A DNA stretch of 64,000 bases from contig SCQH01000008.1 in NCBI GenBank assembly GCA_004321925.1, forward strand, positions 1-64,000, given 5' to 3'. Below the pieces are notes generated by a model, which ran no database searches, had not been told where the DNA came from, and saw nothing but the letters and a program-made list of their open reading frames with translations. The position numbers were made by a program, and so were the translations under genes. The first letter of the stretch is position 1. Each line of letters opens with the position of its first letter. Below, one piece after another: positions 7,310 through 17,232 of the stretch. This stretch comes from Nitrospirota bacterium. Its GTDB lineage: Bacteria > Nitrospirota > Thermodesulfovibrionia > Thermodesulfovibrionales > UBA6898.

Positions 7310-8131
7310 GTGACAGAAATAGGCGAAACAGTGTCACCAGATGTTGTCGGTAGCGTGATAGAGGCCCTGGAGTTCTATCGTGCTTTGGGGGTAGACCGGG
7401 TCCCTGTCACCCTCGGGCCCGACTCTCTGCGCGGTATATCAATAGCCCCGGAGACCTCCGTGAATGCCGCAAGACAGACGGAGCCGGAAACGATGCCCTG
7501 CTGCTCAGTGACCGTGGAGGTCGACCCCATCGCAGAAGCCGGAACAATACGGCGCTCCCCTGAGGATAAGGCAAAGCTGCTGGCAGAGCTCAGAGATGAT
7601 ATCGGTGACTGCAGACGGTGCAAACTTTCCGAGCAGAGAACAAACATTGTCTTTGGGTATGGAAATCCTGATGCGGGGCTCATGTTCATCGGCGAAGCAC
7701 CCGGAGAGGACGAAGATATACAGGGGATCCCTTTTGTAGGCAAGGCAGGAATGCTTCTGACCAGGATGATCGAGAAAATGGAGCTCTCACGGGAATCAGT
7801 CTATATTGCGAATGTCATAAAATGCAGGCCTCCGGGCAACCGGGAGCCTGAGGAAGATGAGCTTGATACCTGCAGGAGGTTTATCGAGAGGCAGATAGAT
7901 ATCATCGGTCCGCAAGTTATCATGACGCTCGGCAGGATCGCCTTGCAGTCACTGATGCGTATCAGGGGCATTAAGATAACCCAGGCACGGGGAAAGTTCC
8001 TTGAGTACCGGGGGATCCCCGTCATGCCTACGTTTCACCCCGCATATCTTCTCAGGAACCCTGCCGATAAATGGAAGACCTGGTCCGATGCTCAAAAGGC
8101 CCTTGAAAAACTGAATGCCATCAAGACATGA
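7310..8131 (+). CDS. Family 4 uracil-DNA glycosylase (Fe-S type)
   Basis: The protein removes uracil from DNA in base-excision repair. The family-4 motif A is present as GEAPGEDED (near residues 127-135) and motif B as HPAYLLRNP near the end. Four cysteines in the C-x2-C ... C-x(~15)-C arrangement (CRRCKLS, KCRPPGN, DTCRR) fit the 4Fe-4S cluster ligands. The first 75 residues are an extra, weakly conserved extension also seen in longer family members. The start is GTG, 3 bases after nadK. The gene overlaps the next one by 17 bases, linking it to the envelope cluster only by position. Confidence 0.92.
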   Translation: MTEIGETVSPDVVGSVIEALEFYRALGVDRVPVTLGPDSLRGISIAPETSVNAARQTEPETMPCCSVTVEVDPIAEAGTIRRSPEDKAKLLAELRDDIGDCRRCKLSEQRTNIVFGYGNPDAGLMFIGEAPGEDEDIQGIPFVGKAGMLLTRMIEKMELSRESVYIANVIKCRPPGNREPEEDELDTCRRFIERQIDIIGPQVIMTLGRIALQSLMRIRGIKITQARGKFLEYRGIPVMPTFHPAYLLRNPADKWKTWSDAQKALEKLNAIKT

Positions 8132-9101
8132 CCAGTCCGAGCATCGCAGCTTGTCTTCCAGGCCGGGACTTCTCTTTTTTTCTCTTGTCGTTCTTTGTTG
8201 CTTTGCCTGCCTGAAAGGCGTGTCAAATGCTGCGGGGGAAGACCGGATCATTGCTGAGGTGAACGGTGAGGCGGTAACCGACGCGGAATACCGGCTTTTT
8301 TTGCTGAAAGATCCGACCCCCGATGTCAGGAATACGGTCGATGAGAAAATTCTGACCCGGCTCATCGAAGAGAGGCTGATACTGCACGAAGCTAAAAAAA
8401 GGCGGATGACGGTTTCTGATAATGACGTAGAGCAGAGCATCCGTGATTTTCAGCAGCGCAACTCCCTGTCTCCCCAGGCATTCGAGAAGACCATTAATGA
8501 TAAGGGGATGGACCTGTCTCAGTACAAAAAATGGCTCAAAGACAATATAATAGTTATAGCGAGGATTACCGATTCTGAGGTGGACAGCAAGGTAATGGTA
8601 ACAGAGAAGGATATTTCGGATTATTATAACCAGAACAGGCGCTTGTTTGTTAAGGACCCGGAAAAGATACTGACTGGTGCTATCATCATGATCATGAGTG
8701 AAAATCCCTCGCCCGATGAGATAACCATGATGAAACTGAAATCGCTCAGGATATATAATGAGTTAAAAAAGGGAACCTCTTTTGATGCCATGGTGGAGCT
8801 TTACTCCGAAGACCCCTCCAAGGGGAAGAATGGAATAATCGGAGAGTTCAGGAGGGGGGAGCTGGTCCCCGAACTGGATAAAAAGCTCTTTGGCCTCAGA
8901 GAGGGCGAGATCAGTGAGCCCATCTGGGTCAAAGAGGGCATTTTTATCCTGAAGCATGTCAGAAGCCTTAAGGAGACATATGTCCCGGTCAGGGACGCGC
9001 GGGAACATATAAAGGCCACACTTTTAAAGGAAAGACGGGAAACAAGATATCGTACCTGGATTAAATCACTATGGGAACGTTCAAAAATAATTATCTATTA
9101 G
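8115..9101 (+). CDS. SurA/PpiC-type periplasmic peptidyl-prolyl isomerase
   Basis: This 328-residue protein carries an N-terminal signal or anchor (hydrophobic residues 18-40, ending near SNAAG), a SurA-type N-terminal chaperone region (EVNGEAVTDAEYRLFLL, LIEERLILHEAKKRRMTVS), and a parvulin domain at about 175-290 (SFDAMVELYSEDPSKGKNGIIGEFRRGEL...LREGEISEPI). It should fold or escort outer-membrane proteins in the periplasm. The last residues form a helix as in SurA. The start overlaps the UDG gene by 17 bases and the end overlaps the next gene by 31. It begins a run of five envelope-protein genes. Confidence 0.88.
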   Translation: MPSRHDQSEHRSLSSRPGLLFFSLVVLCCFACLKGVSNAAGEDRIIAEVNGEAVTDAEYRLFLLKDPTPDVRNTVDEKILTRLIEERLILHEAKKRRMTVSDNDVEQSIRDFQQRNSLSPQAFEKTINDKGMDLSQYKKWLKDNIIVIARITDSEVDSKVMVTEKDISDYYNQNRRLFVKDPEKILTGAIIMIMSENPSPDEITMMKLKSLRIYNELKKGTSFDAMVELYSEDPSKGKNGIIGEFRRGELVPELDKKLFGLREGEISEPIWVKEGIFILKHVRSLKETYVPVRDAREHIKATLLKERRETRYRTWIKSLWERSKIIIY

Positions 9102-12058
9102 CATCGGTGTCAGTTCTGTTCGTGACGCTCTGTCTTCTGACGCTCATTAATACCGCGCATACTGCTGTCTCTGACGAATCAGAGCTTTTTGAAAAGGCCT
9201 ATGGTCTTTACCAGACAAATCAGCCGGAGAAAGCCCTGGAGCTCTTTGTCCTCTTCATGAAAGAATATCCGTCGAGTTCTGCCCGGGACTCGGTCATGTA
9301 CTGGCAGGCAAAGGCAATGATACAGCTCAAAAGGACAGAGGAGGCCAAAAGGGTCTTCAGTGCGATCGCAGAACAGTTCCCCGGCAGCATGTTCAGCAAA
9401 TTTGCGCGGCAGGAACTTGAAGTGCTTGGGCAGGCAGTGCCCGACGCAGTGATCATGCCTGAACCGTCAAAGGAGACACTGCAGAAGCCCGGAGAGATCA
9501 AGCCGGATGTCAGATCCGAGGATCTGAAAATGGCCGAAGAGAAGATCAAGACCCTTAAATTGCAGCTTTCAGAGGCATACACGAAAAACCAGATACTGGA
9601 GAACGAACTTGCGGTGACCATTACAGACAAGCAGTACCTGAAGAACCTGCTTGATGAGTCCAAAAATGCACGCGAGGGTCAACCGGGAGGCAGGGAGGCT
9701 GACCCCCTGCGAGCCGAAAATACACGGTTGCAGCGGGAGCTGAAAAGCCTTGAAGCACGCATGAAGGGTTCAGACAAGATAACAGGCACGGCGGTTAGCA
9801 AGGTAGAACTTGATGACAGTTTAAGAAAGTATAAGGCCCTGGAGGATAAGAACAGGGACCTTGTCAGTAAATCACTGGATTATATCAAGCAGACCGATGC
9901 CCGCCTCGAAAAACTTGAGAATGACAACGACGCCATGCGAAAGGAATTGAAGGAGTCTGGCAGGCTGAAAAGTGAGGCAGATGTCCTCCTCAGGAAGATC
10001 TCAGACGAAAAAGCTGCCCATGAAAGAAAACTAAAGGAACAGGAAGACGTCATCGTATCCTTAAACCGTCTGAAGGAGGAGAACGAAAAGCTTCAAAAAT
10101 CTGCCGGAACGCAGGCAGCCATATCGAAGCCTGATGTTGGTGACCTCGAGGCTTTAAAGAAAGCGAATGATGTATTACAGAAGCGCATATCAGATCTTCA
10201 GGCCAGACAGGGATCTGCAAATGATCTTTTGGCAAAGACAAGGGAACTTGAGAGAAAGTACGCAGAGTCAGAAATTGAGTTACGCAAAGCACTGGACGAA
10301 AAAAGCAGGTCCGAGAAGAAGCTTCAGGACATGGAGAGGTCCCTTGCTGAGCAGAAACAGGGAAGATCTGCGACTGCCCCGAATGGGAATGACACCAGGG
10401 ACTCTGACGCCTATGCAAAACTCAGGGACGGATTAACCCAGTCCGGCCTTTCTGTAAATAAGGCTGAGCTTGAGATCCAGAGACTGGAACGTGAAAAGGA
10501 AACTCTCAGTAAAAAGCTGAAGGAGTCAGAGAGAACAGCGGCCGATACGGAGAAGGCAAAGGTTGCCCTTGAGGTCCAGGCGAAGAAGGCGGCAGCGGAG
10601 ACTGCGGCCCTTGAAAAGCGCGCCAAGGATGCCGAAAGACAGCGGCTTGAGATAGAGGTCCAGGCAAAAAAGGCAGTTGAGGACCGGGGTCTGCTTGAAA
10701 AGAGGATCAGGGATGGAGAAGCAGTCATTGCATCACTGAGCAAGGTTAAGGAAGAGAACGAGAAGCTCAAGGCAGAGAAGGAAAGGGCAGGGGGTAGTGT
10801 TAAGCAGGCAGATTCTGAGATACAGAGGCTGCAGGCCGAGCGGGATGCCCTCCAAAAGAGGATAAAGGACTTCGATGTGAAGGACCGTGAACTGGCGGAA
10901 CTCAGGACACGGCTACAGGTCCTCGAAAGGCAATCGGCCGAGACGGAGAAGGCAAAGGTTGCCCTTGAGGCCCAGGCGAAGAAGGCGGCAGCGGAGACTG
11001 CGGCCCTTGAAAAGCGCGCCAAGGATGCCGAAAGACAGCGGCTGGAGATAGAGGTCCAGGCAAAAAAGGCAAAAGAGGATCGGGGGCTGCTTGAAAAGAG
11101 GCTAGAGGAAAACAGCAGGGTTATCGTGTCTCTGGAGAAGATACGAGATGACCATACCCGCCTGAAACAACTTGCAGGCAAAGACACTGATACGCAAAGA
11201 AAACTGGAGGAAACAAATAAACAGTTAAGCCTCCTGAGCTTGGAGTACAAGGAACTTTTACAGCGCTATGAGACACTCACGCGGAAGGAAACTCCCGTCA
11301 TCAGGATAGGCAAGCAGACCTATACCATGTCACAGATGGCAGCAGAACAGATGATCTCGTCAAAAGTACTGTCGAGGATGGACATTGGATCATCACCCTG
11401 GAGGAAGAATAATGCTTATGAGGATTTTATCATTGAGCAGTTATTGATGAATCATGCCGGTGACAGAGTGAAAAAAGTCGTGCTTACTGAGGCAGACCGC
11501 CTTTCCAATACATATCACTTTGACACCCGGGAGCGTGAATATCTGATAAAATATCTGGCAATAGACCGCCTGATCAAGGATAAAATTGCAGGGCAGCAGG
11601 TGGAAGAGGCACGGATAAAGCAGTACTTCGAAAATAACAGGAATTCTTTTATCGCCGGGAAATTGGAGAAGACGGTCAAGTCGCTGTCGATGCCTTTTTC
11701 CGGTAGTACCAGGGTTGATGGCGCTGTCCTGATGACCGATATTCAGACCGAGGCTGCAGCCGGCCGGTCTCTTGAGTCTTTCAAAAAAGATCACCCTGGT
11801 CCGCTGACATTCAGGCAGCTGAATTTTGATGACCTGCCGCCCTGGATACAAGAAAGGCTGAAGGATCTCAAGGCAGGAGAGATCAGCCACGTTATTTCAA
11901 CAGATGACCAGTTCATGATCTGTCAGGTGCAGATAAAGGAACCGGTATTCAGGACGTATGACGAGGTGCGGAAGGATATCCAAAAGACGCTGGCAACCGC
12001 AGATGTCCTCGGTACATGGCTCAATGCAGTCAGGAAAGAGGCTGAGGAAATACGATGA
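9071..12058 (+). CDS. Large TPR / coiled-coil / parvulin-like fusion protein
   Basis: The 995-residue protein has an N-terminal signal or membrane anchor (residues 8-32). Residues 35-115 are TPR-like, resembling YbgF/CpoB (LFEKAYGLYQ...PEKALELF; AIAEQFPGSMFSKFA). Residues 150-740 form a very long charged coiled coil. The C-terminal part (742-995) has SurA-type layout: an EIEQ-like helical chaperone segment, then a degenerate rotamase (YFENNRNSFI...GEISHVISTDDQFMICQVQIKEP). The usual PPIase active-site pattern is weak, so it may be a chaperone only. A near-identical 165-bp duplication lies within the coiled coil (10541-10705 and 10937-11101). Both ends overlap neighbouring genes. I know no named family with this architecture; a periplasm-spanning scaffold is an inference. 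Confidence 0.8.
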   Translation: MGTFKNNYLLASVSVLFVTLCLLTLINTAHTAVSDESELFEKAYGLYQTNQPEKALELFVLFMKEYPSSSARDSVMYWQAKAMIQLKRTEEAKRVFSAIAEQFPGSMFSKFARQELEVLGQAVPDAVIMPEPSKETLQKPGEIKPDVRSEDLKMAEEKIKTLKLQLSEAYTKNQILENELAVTITDKQYLKNLLDESKNAREGQPGGREADPLRAENTRLQRELKSLEARMKGSDKITGTAVSKVELDDSLRKYKALEDKNRDLVSKSLDYIKQTDARLEKLENDNDAMRKELKESGRLKSEADVLLRKISDEKAAHERKLKEQEDVIVSLNRLKEENEKLQKSAGTQAAISKPDVGDLEALKKANDVLQKRISDLQARQGSANDLLAKTRELERKYAESEIELRKALDEKSRSEKKLQDMERSLAEQKQGRSATAPNGNDTRDSDAYAKLRDGLTQSGLSVNKAELEIQRLEREKETLSKKLKESERTAADTEKAKVALEVQAKKAAAETAALEKRAKDAERQRLEIEVQAKKAVEDRGLLEKRIRDGEAVIASLSKVKEENEKLKAEKERAGGSVKQADSEIQRLQAERDALQKRIKDFDVKDRELAELRTRLQVLERQSAETEKAKVALEAQAKKAAAETAALEKRAKDAERQRLEIEVQAKKAKEDRGLLEKRLEENSRVIVSLEKIRDDHTRLKQLAGKDTDTQRKLEETNKQLSLLSLEYKELLQRYETLTRKETPVIRIGKQTYTMSQMAAEQMISSKVLSRMDIGSSPWRKNNAYEDFIIEQLLMNHAGDRVKKVVLTEADRLSNTYHFDTREREYLIKYLAIDRLIKDKIAGQQVEEARIKQYFENNRNSFIAGKLEKTVKSLSMPFSGSTRVDGAVLMTDIQTEAAAGRSLESFKKDHPGPLTFRQLNFDDLPPWIQERLKDLKAGEISHVISTDDQFMICQVQIKEPVFRTYDEVRKDIQKTLATADVLGTWLNAVRKEAEEIR
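10541..10705 (+). repeat. Intragenic direct repeat, copy 1
   Basis: This 165-bp segment recurs at 10937-11101, offset 396 bp (132 codons), with only a handful of substitutions. It encodes an alanine/lysine/glutamate-rich piece of the coiled coil. The in-frame spacing preserves heptad phasing approximately and implies a recent internal duplication. Confidence 0.9.
10937..11101 (+). repeat. Intragenic direct repeat, copy 2
   Basis: Second copy of the 165-bp repeat at 10541-10705. Differences are scattered single bases, for example GATACGG versus GAGACGG near the start and AGTTGAGGAC versus AAAAGAGGAT near the end. Confidence 0.9.
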
Positions 12059-13317
12059 TGTTCAGGCGCAAGGACAACGCAGCAGGCATTGAAAGGAAGA
12101 TACAGGAGGCCCTAAAGAAGCCTCTGACCCCTGAAAACCTCAATTATCTTGGGGACCTCTACCTGCGCAAGGGCGAACGGGAGATGACCATAGAAAGCTA
12201 TTATAATGCTATTGCAAAGCTCCATATCTCGCAGCAGGACAAGATGGTGGCCCTATATAAAAAGATCCTTAAGGTATCCCCGTATGAAGAAAAAGCATAC
12301 AATGGCCTGATCACCCTGTTTTCCAAGATGGGGCTTGTGGCGGACGAGGTTAAATACCTGACGTTGCTGGCCAAATTGTATCAGACCAGAAGTGATTACA
12401 ACCAGGTGAATTCCACGTTCAGAAAGATCAATGCCCTCGATCCTGATAACGAGGCAGCCTTAAAGTATTTTGGAACAGGCAAACAGGCCGATGTCTCACT
12501 ACCTGCACAGGATGAAGATATCGGTATGAATGAGGAACATGCCGCTGAGCTTCTTTCCGGGCTTCCCGAAATTGGCGACCTGGCCGATGTTGTTCCGGCT
12601 TCACCTGAGGAAGATATCCCTCAGGAAGAAAGTTCCGTACAATCCCCGGACCAGCGGAGCACTGAAGCCGAGAGCACTGCGATTCCTTTCCTGCAGGAAA
12701 CAGGGCAGAGCCCTGAATCCCGGGATGAACCGTTAATACCTGCGGGCGAGCTCCCCTCGAACAATAGGCTTTATCTTGGAGGGGGGATTGCTGTATTATT
12801 AATCATTCTTTTAGCAGCAGGTTTTTATTTACTGAATAGAAAGACTCCTGTTGCCGATTCTCCGGTCAAGGCCCCTGAAGCCGGTTTCACTGAAAAGGGC
12901 CCTGCGTCAAAACAGGGAAAGGCCATAGGGGTTGACTTGAAGGTAGTAAGAATGTCCGATGCGACGCTGAGGGATAATGGAATCGACAAGGGGTTAGGCC
13001 ACGGGGTGATCAATGAAAATGAGTTCTATATGCTGACGGCATACCAGCGGAGGGGATGTCTGCCTGAGGGGCTTCTTGCATCTCCTTCCACGCTGATATC
13101 ATTTGTTGATAGTAAAGGCAGGTTGAATCCGCCAGTAGACATCAGGGGACTGGCCGAGTTCAACAGGACCGTCTATAAATCCCGGGTTGCGGGTTGCGGG
13201 GAAAATAAACCGGTCTTTGTGAAGGTCTTTATCGCACATAAAAAAGGCATGGGATATACCGGACTTTCGGTGAACATTCCAGGGAAAGGCGCGGCAGAAA
13301 TACTTACGTGGGATTAG
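12055..13317 (+). CDS. TPR protein with single membrane span and exported C-terminal domain
   Basis: The 420-residue protein starts at an ATG overlapping the previous stop (ATGA); a second ATG follows directly. Residues 15-140 form a TPR-like array (NYLGDLYLRKGEREMTIESY; VALYKKILKVSPYEEKAYNGL), then an acidic Ser/Glu/Pro linker. One hydrophobic span lies at about 242-262. The C-terminal 150 residues form a compact domain with two cysteines (RRGCLPEG, VAGCGENK) and no family I recognise. With no signal peptide, the TPR part should be cytoplasmic and the C-terminal part periplasmic. Such N-in TPR proteins often act as assembly hubs. Its place between a coiled-coil protein and a LysM-like protein suggests a joint envelope role. 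Confidence 0.75.
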   Translation: MMFRRKDNAAGIERKIQEALKKPLTPENLNYLGDLYLRKGEREMTIESYYNAIAKLHISQQDKMVALYKKILKVSPYEEKAYNGLITLFSKMGLVADEVKYLTLLAKLYQTRSDYNQVNSTFRKINALDPDNEAALKYFGTGKQADVSLPAQDEDIGMNEEHAAELLSGLPEIGDLADVVPASPEEDIPQEESSVQSPDQRSTEAESTAIPFLQETGQSPESRDEPLIPAGELPSNNRLYLGGGIAVLLIILLAAGFYLLNRKTPVADSPVKAPEAGFTEKGPASKQGKAIGVDLKVVRMSDATLRDNGIDKGLGHGVINENEFYMLTAYQRRGCLPEGLLASPSTLISFVDSKGRLNPPVDIRGLAEFNRTVYKSRVAGCGENKPVFVKVFIAHKKGMGYTGLSVNIPGKGAAEILTWD

Positions 13318-14792
13318 GGATTGGGAATTACATAAGCGCAGCAGTTTTCGCGTCATGTCTGTTTATTTTTACGGGGAATGACCTATTTGCCGCCCCTCGG
13401 ACCCCGCGCGCTGATAAAGTCAGCGGGGTGCCGACCGTAGAGATAAAGCTCAGGCGTGATTCTTCACTGAACCGGATCATCAAGGCCTATACCCCCGGGT
13501 TGCCTGACAGGGATATTGCAGAGTTCCTGAGGGAATTTTCGTCGGCCAATGAAGGGATAAAGAATTTCAACCTGATCAGGAAAGGCACCGTAGTGAGAGT
13601 GCCGGCCCGCTACCTTGAGAAAGGCAGTCGCTCACGTGACCCGAAACCGGGGCTGGCCGCCTCAGACAAGAAGACTGCCGGGCTCCCTGCAGTTGACTAT
13701 CACCGTGAATTAAAGCCGACGGCACAGACGTTTCCTCAGAATGACCCGTTCAGGAACTCGCCTGTTTCCGACAGCATCAGAACCCTTCTTGAGTCCCTCT
13801 ATGGCGCAGTGACGGTGGAATCAGGCGGGCTTAAATTCTTTTCTGTCGGAGAGCGCTCTGAGATTTCCCTGGATACCTCTTATCTGCCTCTTATGGTCCT
13901 GAATAACAGTACGGTCCTGGTCCTTGATCCAGGGAATATTCTCCCTGAAGAGATCAAGCAGCTCGTCAGGACCTTGTGGCCCGAATATACCTTTTTCAGT
14001 TACCGAGAGGGCCAGGATCTCAGAAGGCTGACCGGGTCTCTTCTTGAATCACTCGGATACTCAGTCTACCGGGACAGGTCCCTGATACTCGGCGGACGAT
14101 CACAGCTTGAGTATAACGCCGATTTTGTCGTATACCGGGAGCAGGGCGATCTTATGAGCAGCGACATCGCCATTGTAAGCATTGCAGGTTCTCCCGGGCA
14201 GCATACGCCTGACAGCCTGGTGAGATGGCTGGGCGAGAGGGATGTTAACCTGATCCGGATGAGTACATCAGAAAACGGGCAGGCAGAACCTGCCACACGG
14301 GCCGGCCTGGCCAAACTGACCCTGACGGCCGGCACCAGGGAACTGATCAGGGAGATACTTTCCCTGACCGGATATTCCTATGCAACTGATGTGGTGCTAA
14401 ACCTTTCGGACAGAAAAGAATACCGTTACAACCTGAAGACTGATTTCAGCATACCGGCTGGCCAGAGAAAGAAGGTCATCGAACTCGCAGAACTCTCAGA
14501 GGAGGAAATCAGTCTTGCCCGCAAGAAAGGCGTTGACGTCGCCTGCATCGGTCCGGGAGACGATACCAAGGGCATTCTGAGAAAATTGATTCAGCTCCTC
14601 GGTATCATTCATGCCGATTCTCCGGCTGCGGTTTCATCGTATATCACCCCCCGCAACGCAAAATACCGGCTGCTCCTGCCGGGAATATACTTTCGGACCG
14701 GACAAGGACAGTTCTTTGCAACCGATTCCGAGTTGGGGCAGGAATTGCTGAGGGACATCATTGATCCCCGAATAAGGATCATAGCCTACTAG
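13308..14792 (+). CDS. Exported protein with LysM-like N-terminal region
   Basis: The 494-residue protein starts at a GTG that overlaps the previous gene by 10 bases. A signal peptide covers residues 8-29 (ending LFAAP). Residues 45-100 resemble a LysM module (VEIKLRRDSSLNRIIKAY ... FNLIRKGTVVRVPARYL), which would bind peptidoglycan, but it is divergent. The remaining 370 residues form alpha/beta segments I do not recognise. The gene is translationally linked to the TPR-membrane protein, so a shared complex is plausible. Function unknown. Confidence 0.7.
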   Translation: MGLGIGNYISAAVFASCLFIFTGNDLFAAPRTPRADKVSGVPTVEIKLRRDSSLNRIIKAYTPGLPDRDIAEFLREFSSANEGIKNFNLIRKGTVVRVPARYLEKGSRSRDPKPGLAASDKKTAGLPAVDYHRELKPTAQTFPQNDPFRNSPVSDSIRTLLESLYGAVTVESGGLKFFSVGERSEISLDTSYLPLMVLNNSTVLVLDPGNILPEEIKQLVRTLWPEYTFFSYREGQDLRRLTGSLLESLGYSVYRDRSLILGGRSQLEYNADFVVYREQGDLMSSDIAIVSIAGSPGQHTPDSLVRWLGERDVNLIRMSTSENGQAEPATRAGLAKLTLTAGTRELIREILSLTGYSYATDVVLNLSDRKEYRYNLKTDFSIPAGQRKKVIELAELSEEEISLARKKGVDVACIGPGDDTKGILRKLIQLLGIIHADSPAAVSSYITPRNAKYRLLLPGIYFRTGQGQFFATDSELGQELLRDIIDPRIRIIAY

Positions 14793-14873
14793 AGCTCATT
14801 TTATTTCTTTGACAGAGCAGTACTAAATATGATTTCATATAACATTTGGTGAATAAAAAGAGGGCATATAACT

Positions 14874-16904
14874 ATGATGAAAAAACCGTATAGAGACATT
14901 ATTATCCTGATCGTATCGGCTGTATTGCTTGCAGGTTGGTTGCCCGTTCCCGTGCAGGCAGGCACTGTTGTCGTCAAGCCGGGCCAGTTTGATCATTTTT
15001 CGCTTCAGCTTCCTGATAAATCCATTGCCGGTGAGAATTTTATCGTCAGGGTGCAGGCCTTTGACCTTAATAATAACCTGATCACCAATTTTATCGAGTC
15101 GGGGAAGGAATTCAAGATCGATGTAAGCGGCTCTGCCGCGGTCCAGCCGTCCACGCTGAATGCGTCATCTTTTTCAGGAGGCGCGGCAAATATCTCTGTT
15201 AACTGCAAAAAGGCTGAGAGGCTCATTATTTCTATCCGTGAGTCCGGCGGCACCGTCCCGGTAATATCACGGGAATTGATTGTTTCACCCAATAAGCTTG
15301 AGCATTTTGTTCTGCAGGCGCCGGCAACCGTCAAGGCAGGCACCAGATTTGATATGCGCATCATCGCAAAGGACCTCTTTGACAATACGGTCGATGACGT
15401 GGAGATCGGGAGGAATCTGAAGATCACCTCATCAGGGACCGCCAATCCCGTCATGGTGAGCAGTGCTGCCATCGATTTTAAGAATGGAACGGCAACAGCA
15501 ACCTTTGTTTCCGAAAAGGCGGGCGCCACGGTTATCGAACTTCAGGAGATCTCAGGCGGCAGCAGGGGGCGGTCTAACGAGGTCAGCGTCACCCCCGGCT
15601 CCCTGAGCAGTTTCAAGGTTCAGGCACCCAAGGCAGCGGTTGCCGGTGAGGCCTTTGACCTGCTGGTGTCTGCGTATGACGCGTATGACAACCTGATCAC
15701 GAATTATGCAACTGCAGGTGCCGGCGTGTCACTGCTCAGTACCGGCAGCACCAAGATCGAACCGTCTTTCCTTGCACCGTCGGATTTCAAGGGAGGGCAG
15801 GCTGTGGTCAGGGCTGTTTACGACAAGGCTGAGGACATAACGGTCATTGCAAAGGACGTCAACAGCGAGAAATCAGGAAAGACCGCCGAGATACAGATCA
15901 GCAATGCTTCCCCGGATCATTTTGTTGTGGTCACGCCGGATATGGCAGTATCAGGCCAAAGGTTCAAGATCAAGATCGAGGCTTACGACCGGTTCAATAA
16001 TATCGTGAGAAACTTTAACATTTCCGGAAACGAGGTGTTGCTGAGCACGACAGGCACCAGTTTCATTAATCCTTCGATCATTGTGCCGACAGACTTCATT
16101 AATGGAATAGCAATGATCGATGTCACCTATGACAAAGCAGAATCCTTTACCCTTTCTGCCAAGATGATCAGCGATAAACGTCAGCCCAAGATGACCATCA
16201 GCGAGAAGGTGCCGGCTAAAGAGGCGGCCCAACCGGTTCAGCAGGCTTCCGGCCGGAAGGAAGAAAAACCGGTCCCGGTGAAAAAGGACGTAAAGCCGGA
16301 ACCTAAGAAAGAAACTGCAGCCCCGGCAGAACCCAGAAAGAAACCGGAAGCTGAGACAAGGCCGGCTGAGAAACCTGTCAGGACGGCGAAGGTGCAGAAA
16401 CCCGCTGCTGAAACAAAACCCTCATTGCCGGCAGAAAAACCCCCCGTGAAACCGGCCGAAGCAAAGAAACCGGAGGTCAAGCAGGCGGCGGAGCAGAAGC
16501 CTGATAGACCGGCAGAGGCTGTCCGGACGCCTCAGGAACCGCTAAAGAAGGAAGAAAAGAAGGGTGAACATACGACAGCGGTCAGCAAGATAGCTGCAAT
16601 TGAGGCTAAGAGCAAGGCAATGCTCGTGATCAATCTTTCCGATGTTGGCCCGCAGTTTGAATATTCCGACAGTGTCGTCACGAGGGGTGGCAAGGAGTGG
16701 CTCAGTCTTTCCATGAAACCGGCCGTTAGGAAGACCGAGAAAGTGTTTAAGTTTAAATCGGCCTTCATGGGAGAAGTCCAGGTGGAAGATGACAAATCTG
16801 GGCAGAATGCCCTTACTATCCTGATAGAATTGCTTCCCACCGGGGTTACCTTTGACGTAGAGCGGATCAAGAACACGCTCATAGTGACGCTTTCCAAACC
16901 CTAA
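14874..16904 (+). CDS. Surface protein with four Ig-like repeats and C-terminal AMIN-like domain
   Basis: The 676-residue protein has a signal peptide (residues 8-30, ending VQAGT). Four repeats of about 102 residues begin near 36, 139, 241 and 344, each with the pattern F-x-(V/L)-x-A...AGxxFxxxxxAxDxxxNxxxxF and a STGT/SG-rich middle, like bacterial Ig-fold modules. A Lys/Pro/Glu-rich linker spans about 445-575. The last 95 residues resemble an AMIN domain (LVINLSDVGPQFEYSD...LLPTGVTFDVERIKNTLIVTL), known from PilQ secretins and cell-wall amidases as an envelope-targeting domain. It begins 81 bases after the previous gene, with AGAGG before ATGATG. The architecture suggests a spacer from peptidoglycan or outer membrane to the surface; partner unknown. 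Confidence 0.75.
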   Translation: MMKKPYRDIIILIVSAVLLAGWLPVPVQAGTVVVKPGQFDHFSLQLPDKSIAGENFIVRVQAFDLNNNLITNFIESGKEFKIDVSGSAAVQPSTLNASSFSGGAANISVNCKKAERLIISIRESGGTVPVISRELIVSPNKLEHFVLQAPATVKAGTRFDMRIIAKDLFDNTVDDVEIGRNLKITSSGTANPVMVSSAAIDFKNGTATATFVSEKAGATVIELQEISGGSRGRSNEVSVTPGSLSSFKVQAPKAAVAGEAFDLLVSAYDAYDNLITNYATAGAGVSLLSTGSTKIEPSFLAPSDFKGGQAVVRAVYDKAEDITVIAKDVNSEKSGKTAEIQISNASPDHFVVVTPDMAVSGQRFKIKIEAYDRFNNIVRNFNISGNEVLLSTTGTSFINPSIIVPTDFINGIAMIDVTYDKAESFTLSAKMISDKRQPKMTISEKVPAKEAAQPVQQASGRKEEKPVPVKKDVKPEPKKETAAPAEPRKKPEAETRPAEKPVRTAKVQKPAAETKPSLPAEKPPVKPAEAKKPEVKQAAEQKPDRPAEAVRTPQEPLKKEEKKGEHTTAVSKIAAIEAKSKAMLVINLSDVGPQFEYSDSVVTRGGKEWLSLSMKPAVRKTEKVFKFKSAFMGEVQVEDDKSGQNALTILIELLPTGVTFDVERIKNTLIVTLSKP

Positions 16905-16944: not shown

Positions 16945-17232
16945 GTGACTACCGGCTGTGGTTCCTGCAAACATGGGCATGAGATAAAGGCAGATGGCAG
17001 CAGGCCGTCGCCGGGCACGGTCTGGTGTTCCCAGCGCAAGATCCAGATGGCAAAGCACCGGCAGATGTCTTGTTACATCCCCCTGGTAGTTCAAAAGACG
17101 AAACATTGTATCGATTGCAAGAAAGCTAAGATCATCAAGCCTTCAGGCGAGGCCCCTCAATTAGGCAATATCTGGTGCGATAAGAAGCATACCGAGATAA
17201 ACAAACAACGCAGCATGGAGTGCTTTGAATAG
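16945..17232 (+). CDS. Small duplicated Cys-rich (zinc-ribbon-like) protein
   Basis: This 95-residue protein starts at GTG (an ATG two bases earlier is immediately followed by a stop). It contains two copies of one module with identical spacing: C-x2-C-x18-W-C-x14-C. In both copies W precedes the third Cys and M-x-C ends the module. Four cysteines per module suit one zinc ion or a small Fe-S site. There is no signal peptide, so it should be cytoplasmic. It converges on recD2 with a 6-base gap and no terminator. I know no named family; a metal-binding or nucleic-acid role is inference. Confidence 0.7.
   Translation: MTTGCGSCKHGHEIKADGSRPSPGTVWCSQRKIQMAKHRQMSCYIPLVVQKTKHCIDCKKAKIIKPSGEAPQLGNIWCDKKHTEINKQRSMECFE

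Follow-up and report, generated by a model that had tools for sequence, protein, structure and literature searches.

Do five consecutive genes make up one envelope system with chaperones of its own, or do they belong to more than one unit? The question is raised by a 64,000-nucleotide stretch of a Nitrospirota bacterium (Thermodesulfovibrionales; GenBank assembly GCA_004321925.1, contig SCQH01000008.1, positions 1 to 64,000), here called the window and meaning the whole stretch of DNA analysed. In the open reading frame (ORF) listing of the window, five frames, P1 to P5, follow one another on the + strand in the order in which they were first read. An initial annotation had taken them for a single cluster and proposed a trans-envelope scaffold with its own chaperones. 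Instead, the string consists of two neighbouring units, P1 plus P2 (module A) and P3-P4-P5 (module B). The former is a common folding-helper pair; the latter is an undescribed three-gene set that may connect an exported immunoglobulin (Ig)-like protein with the cell wall and the inner membrane. The annotation had named no known system with this gene content, and that judgement holds: P3-P4-P5 correspond to no named pilus or secretion operon, and literature searches returned nothing on this gene set.

Distribution of the Two Gene Units

The genomes compared are a sample, many of them metagenome assemblies, with 396 from the phylum and 27 from the home family. Exactly nine of the 27 family genomes carry P4, the same ones carry P5, and P3, traced by its C-terminal domain (P3C), is found in those nine as well. 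The family genomes without P3-P5 include several that are more than 95% complete, and within two genera some genomes carry the genes and others do not. Mapped on the P1 tree, the trait requires three changes, and well-supported branches make two of these unavoidable. Across the phylum sample, P3C was found in 11 of 396 genomes and the core of P4 in 10 of 396, all of them P5-bearing. The three genes are contiguous and keep their order in at least seven genomes (the window, G002, G003, G008, G011, G020, and G024), while in G006 contig ends cut the locus, so that P4 is broken at the edge of one contig and its C-terminal remainder lies next to P5 on another. In UBA9159 the three stand together at a different locus, after a nadA-like gene (a label read from sequence), with P1-P2 not beside them.

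P1 and P2, for their part, are adjacent in genomes without P3-P5 (G007, G010, G013, G016, G017, G019, and G057), mostly beside nadK and/or the uracil-DNA glycosylase gene (udg), and the pair is also found without P3-P5 in another family, f11. The idea that the scaffold has its own chaperones is unsupported, because relatives from which P3-P5 are absent keep P1-P2 in the same position at nadK-udg.

The independence of P1-P2 would also agree with another explanation, in which nothing but a stretch of chromosome is shared: P1 and P2 would chaperone outer-membrane proteins in general, and the envelope proteins P3, P4, and P5 would be separate from one another and neighbours in one family by chance. 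The solitary P5 of other families, with tpiA, ftsY, or ruv genes as neighbours, fits this view. It does not readily account for the exact common phyletic pattern of P3, P4, and P5 in the family, for their standing together at another locus in UBA9159, or for the retention of P5 in G022 although it is unlinked there, and we regard chance as an unlikely explanation that nonetheless keeps some weight. Scattered homologues without conserved order had been named at the outset as a finding that would refute the proposal; P5 is indeed scattered outside the family, but P3 and P4 are not.

A Candidate Trans-Envelope Tether

What survives of the proposed scaffold is P3-P4-P5, with their common phyletic pattern, order, and second locus in UBA9159; P1-P2 lie outside it. 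The reading we favour, at a probability of roughly 0.42 and so somewhat short of even odds, is that P1-P2 serve protein folding in general as a SurA/PpiD-like pair and that P3-P4-P5 form a separate, lineage-specific trans-envelope tether. P1 would work like SurA in the periplasm, and P2 like YfgM-PpiD made as one chain, with membrane-anchored tetratricopeptide repeats (TPRs), a coiled coil, and a degenerate parvulin domain; together they would pass exported proteins on towards the outer membrane. P3 would be anchored in the inner membrane with its TPRs in the cytosol and P3C in the periplasm, P4 would bind peptidoglycan via a LysM-like domain, and P5 would be an exported rod of Ig domains whose linker and C-terminal beta domain span the wall to P3C or P4. 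What is observed is which genes are present, their domains and conserved order, their co-occurrence, and the fact that the two units occur independently; the tether reading further supposes every contact, binding to peptidoglycan, the tether role itself, and any export beyond what the signal sequences indicate.

Several points weigh against it. Most P5 carriers lack P3 and P4, which therefore cannot be needed for the basic role of P5, and in G022 P5 is unlinked and not beside P4. Linked genes can be lost jointly, which makes the co-occurrence of P3-P4-P5 weaker evidence than it appears. The LysM assignment in P4 stands at a 39% profile match, far above controls and not decisive. An outer-membrane anchor for P5 was not found, with no barrel or lipobox seen in either the sequence or the model. 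Finally, the contacts among P3C, P4, and P5 are hypothetical.

P3 and a New Periplasmic Domain

As first described, P3 is a TPR-membrane protein: its predicted layout comprises cytosolic TPRs, a single transmembrane (TM) helix (residues 239–257), and the periplasmic C-terminal domain P3C. P3C is a new periplasmic domain, and it recurs C-terminal to the TM helix in long coiled-coil single-TM proteins. In five genomes (G000, G002, G003, G046, and G055) the genes of these coiled-coil proteins adjoin a gene with PilZ, DUF4388, DnaJ, and TPR domains or lie one gene off, the PilZ match being weak in the G000 neighbour; loci at which the two stand side by side are L195:387-4955 (G000), L196, L197, L198, and L201. 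In genomes of family f9, a relative of the PilZ-DUF4388-DnaJ-TPR protein is encoded directly upstream of P5 (L053 and L059).

Since P3C is found only with P5, and both adjoin the same PilZ-DnaJ family in f9 genomes, the linkage might also receive cytosolic input. PilZ-DUF4388-DnaJ-TPR proteins would then act with P3C single-pass proteins that contact P5, with P4 pinning the assembly to the wall, as a lineage-specific trans-envelope linkage in which P5 would be the hub, P3C the inner-membrane socket, and PilZ-type signals could tune the whole. We hold this extension to be speculative and rather unlikely as it stands.

P4, a LysM-like Domain Followed by Repeats

P4 carries a signal sequence, a LysM-like domain, and tandem alpha/beta repeats, and it has no family match in Pfam or NCBIfam. 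That it is a LysM-like exported protein, as the initial annotation had it, is moderately supported by profile comparison: in hhalign the N-terminal domain matches LysM at 39% (P = 3e-4), the whole domain being aligned with an insertion, compared with 2.1% or less for controls; there is no Pfam match. Relatives carry the same LysM-like domain in outer-membrane proteins of two kinds, C-terminally in GspD secretins and N-terminally in BBP2-type beta-barrels. The type II GspD examples are L056:6609-8738, L092, L093, and L094, and the barrels are L057:8424-10286 (BBP2 type) and L095:8080-9942. As read from sequence, the BBP2-type barrel sits in an exopolysaccharide gene group, and the L095 barrel has a Wzc-like kinase and a ligase-like gene as neighbours.

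The AlphaFold model of P4 (mean predicted local distance difference test score 74) shows the repeats in an alpha-beta-beta-beta-alpha-beta arrangement, and repeat R1 is related to R2 (P = 1.5e-4). Their best single-domain Foldseek matches are PD-(D/E)XK-like (R2, Bax1, DrdV, and Can2), with single-domain probability up to 0.97, and the topology of R1 and R2 resembles that of such domains (Mrr, Bax1, R2). Unlike these, P4 is exported; an Asp is conserved in each repeat, but the acidic position has no following lysine, so that there is no (D/E)xK motif. The profile test was negative (Mrr_cat match below 3%), and homology to Mrr-type nucleases was rejected on that basis. A comparison of P4 with Protein Data Bank (PDB) sequences gave designed TIM barrels only, which we took as chance, and fold matches to gelsolin/villin were set aside at a TM-score of about 0.1.

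P5, an Older Hub with Ig-like Domains

P5 has a signal sequence and tandem Ig-like domains. Its four repeats are as first counted, but they are Ig-like and not AMIN-like: their best fold matches are FdeC and invasin (Foldseek E = 2e-12 and 1e-10), and Big_1 is found in 11 of 17 members. P5 differs from the invasin/FdeC adhesins in having no intimin/invasin outer-membrane barrel; it combines a signal sequence, a linker rich in Lys and Pro, and a beta domain at the C-terminus. Profile comparison does not bear out an AMIN-type domain for this C-terminus. Like the domains of AmiC and PilQ it is all-beta, and over 31 columns it locally resembles the final strands of the PilQ AMIN domain, but it has no Pfam match and its profile match to two AMIN sets is 0.6% and 10.9%, compared with the 95.9% at which AmiC-type and PilQ-type AMIN recover each other in the positive control.

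P5-profile matches fall in Nitrospirota records, chiefly Thermodesulfovibrionales. P5 is the older hub of the three-gene set: it is present in 53 of the 396 phylum genomes, mostly alone beside housekeeping genes, such as tpiA in f2 and ruv genes in f9. In f13 P5 and an mreBCD-pbp2-rodA run are arranged head to head, and ftsY follows P5. An mreB-type run head to head with P5, and an ftsY-like gene after P5, are seen at L054, L055, L060, L134, L135, L139, L141, L142, and L148, Pfam-confirmed in L054 and recognised at the remaining loci by gene length and a BLAST match to FtsY.

These neighbourhoods suggest a role in wall growth, with P5 acting with the MreB-PBP2-RodA elongation complex and P3-P4 as parts added in one family. 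The f13 arrangement, its recurrence elsewhere (recognised from gene lengths and a match to FtsY), and the LysM-like domain of P4 are all consistent with this. The neighbourhood could, however, be nothing more than inherited gene order; P5 is missing from most of the phylum genomes sampled, so that it is not essential for the machinery; and P5 is located elsewhere in f2, f9, and f1. We regard a wall-growth role for P5 and its partners as improbable.

P1 and P2, a Folding-Helper Pair

The PpiC isomerase of the initial annotation is, by its domains, an exported SurA-type parvulin protein: P1 has a signal sequence, a SurA_N domain (PF13624, 2.9e-14), and one rotamase domain (PF00639, 9.7e-15), and the P1-family profile matches Escherichia coli SurA over some 240 residues (E about 1e-38). 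SurA, however, has two parvulin domains where P1 has one, and the catalytic residues differ. In 14 of 14 aligned homologues, Y or F stands in place of the second parvulin histidine; the first aligns to A or S and not to a histidine, an H standing one residue earlier in two members. Since the parvulin histidines are not conserved, P1 is better read as foldase-like, and its isomerase activity is doubtful.

P2 bears out its description as a 995-residue fusion of TPR, coiled coil, and parvulin-like parts. The TPR region is clear, behind an N-terminal signal anchor that forms a TM helix (residues 8–26). The parvulin domain is visible by profile only, where it matches the P1 family at 98.6% probability and, in the PDB, LIC12922 and PrsA; in the window protein the conserved histidines are absent at the aligned positions. 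The TPR is of CpoB/YbgF type (NCBIfam tol_pal_ybgF, E = 1.8e-7; CpoB chain, E = 0.022), but the score of 31.8 bits lies far below the family cut-off of 90.1, and no tol-pal genes were seen nearby. In E. coli, YfgM binds the parvulin-containing PpiD through its TPR, and the pair forms a unit at the Sec translocon (PMC9643414). This is the nearest known arrangement to P2, which carries all three parts of a YfgM-PpiD-like set (an anchor in the inner membrane, a TPR in the periplasm, and a degenerate parvulin domain) in one chain and in which the parts may act together. The likeness is one of parts and does not imply homology to YfgM: in P2 a long coiled coil separates the parts of a single chain, and its TPR (TPR_6) gave no match to a YfgM-type TPR family in the Pfam and NCBIfam searches.

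Could P1-P2 still be dedicated chaperones of a P3-P4-P5 surface structure, so that all five genes form one system? The gene overlaps suggest co-transcription, genomes with P3-P5 tend to have a longer P2, and, in searches that scored part of the candidates per genome, all nine family genomes with P3-P5 carry P2. The same searches found P2 in eight family genomes without P3-P5, f11 keeps P1-P2 as well, and the P3-P4-P5 of UBA9159 have no adjoining P1-P2. We therefore think a five-gene system quite improbable, slightly more so than a role in wall growth.

P2 itself is variable. Complete genes encode 826–1,300 amino acids (aa) in genomes with P3-P5 and 522–715 aa in those without (raw lengths, ancestry ignored), with the exception of G022 at 410 aa. 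Second, diverged P2-like proteins with a TPR and a SurA-like part (670–720 aa) are found elsewhere in genomes of one genus (G008:C10, G020:C199, and G024:C123). In G003 (L038:12504-15913), P2 reads as two frames that overlap in the coiled coil, a frameshift or assembly error; an apparent split in G002 was rejected as an assembly gap (X residues).

Last among the alternatives, a part in type II secretion or a type IV pilus, in which P4 would resemble a pilotin or anchor a secretin, is very improbable: the LysM-like domain of P4 does form the GspD C-terminus in relatives, but secretins are found in 61 of 61 close relatives, module present or not, so that no pilus or secretion link shows, and in the genomes examined the cluster itself showed no secretion gene, nor was a secretin, ATPase, or pilin gene recognised beside it. 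A flagellar link was rejected too, as Flagellin_N does not track the module.

Gene Run and Features

All five frames are kept as proteins among relatives, at identities down to about 30%, and this protein-level conservation identifies them as genes. The order and the overlaps of the first four genes are as initially reported, at 31 bases (P1/P2), 4 bases (P2/P3), and 10 bases (P3/P4); a gap of 81 bases separates P4 from P5 (Table 1). The string is not self-contained: it continues a same-strand run, leuA-CBS-tsaE-nadK-udg, and udg, directly upstream, overlaps P1 by 17 bases, which makes P1-P5 the tail of a longer run and not a free-standing five-gene operon. Promoter and terminator scans gave results at chance level, and Tandem Repeats Finder found no array. 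On the 3' side of P5 lies P6 (window 16945-17232), a small Cys-rich protein without a family match; in several relatives without P3-P5 it follows P2.

Table 1. Positions of the genes P1 to P5 and of their domains and repeats in the window
Feature	Position	Strand	Remarks
P1	8115..9101	+	328 aa
P2	9071..12058	+	995 aa
P2 TPR region (residues 46-114)	9206..9412	+	CpoB/YbgF-like TPR matches
P2 coiled-coil internal duplication	10486..11101	+	220-nt copies 10486-10705 / 10882-11101, 85% identical
P2 C-terminal SurA_N/parvulin-like domain	11255..12055	+	Profile matches
P3	12055..13317	+	420 aa
P3C domain	12925..13314	+	130 aa, one invariant Cys
P4	13308..14792	+	494 aa, GTG start
P4 LysM-like domain	13437..13613	+	Insertion of about 11 residues
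P4 tandem repeats (R1 14007-14282, R2 14322-14555)	14007..14555	+	Alpha-beta-beta-beta-alpha-beta
P5	14874..16904	+	676 aa
P5 four invasin-like Ig domains	about 14985-16169	+	Profile, model, Foldseek
P5 Lys/Pro/Glu-rich linker	about 16170-16568	+	Length varies among homologues
P5 all-beta C-terminal domain	about 16575-16895	+	Model

Implications

The double-membrane envelope of Nitrospirota is little studied. If the tether reading is true, P3-P4-P5 would be a new means by which bacteria of this phylum connect their inner membrane and wall with an exported protein, and candidate partners would be at hand for P5, which is conserved and carries no annotation. P2 would show periplasmic TPR and parvulin helpers fused in one chain, and would offer a natural test of the YfgM-PpiD idea.

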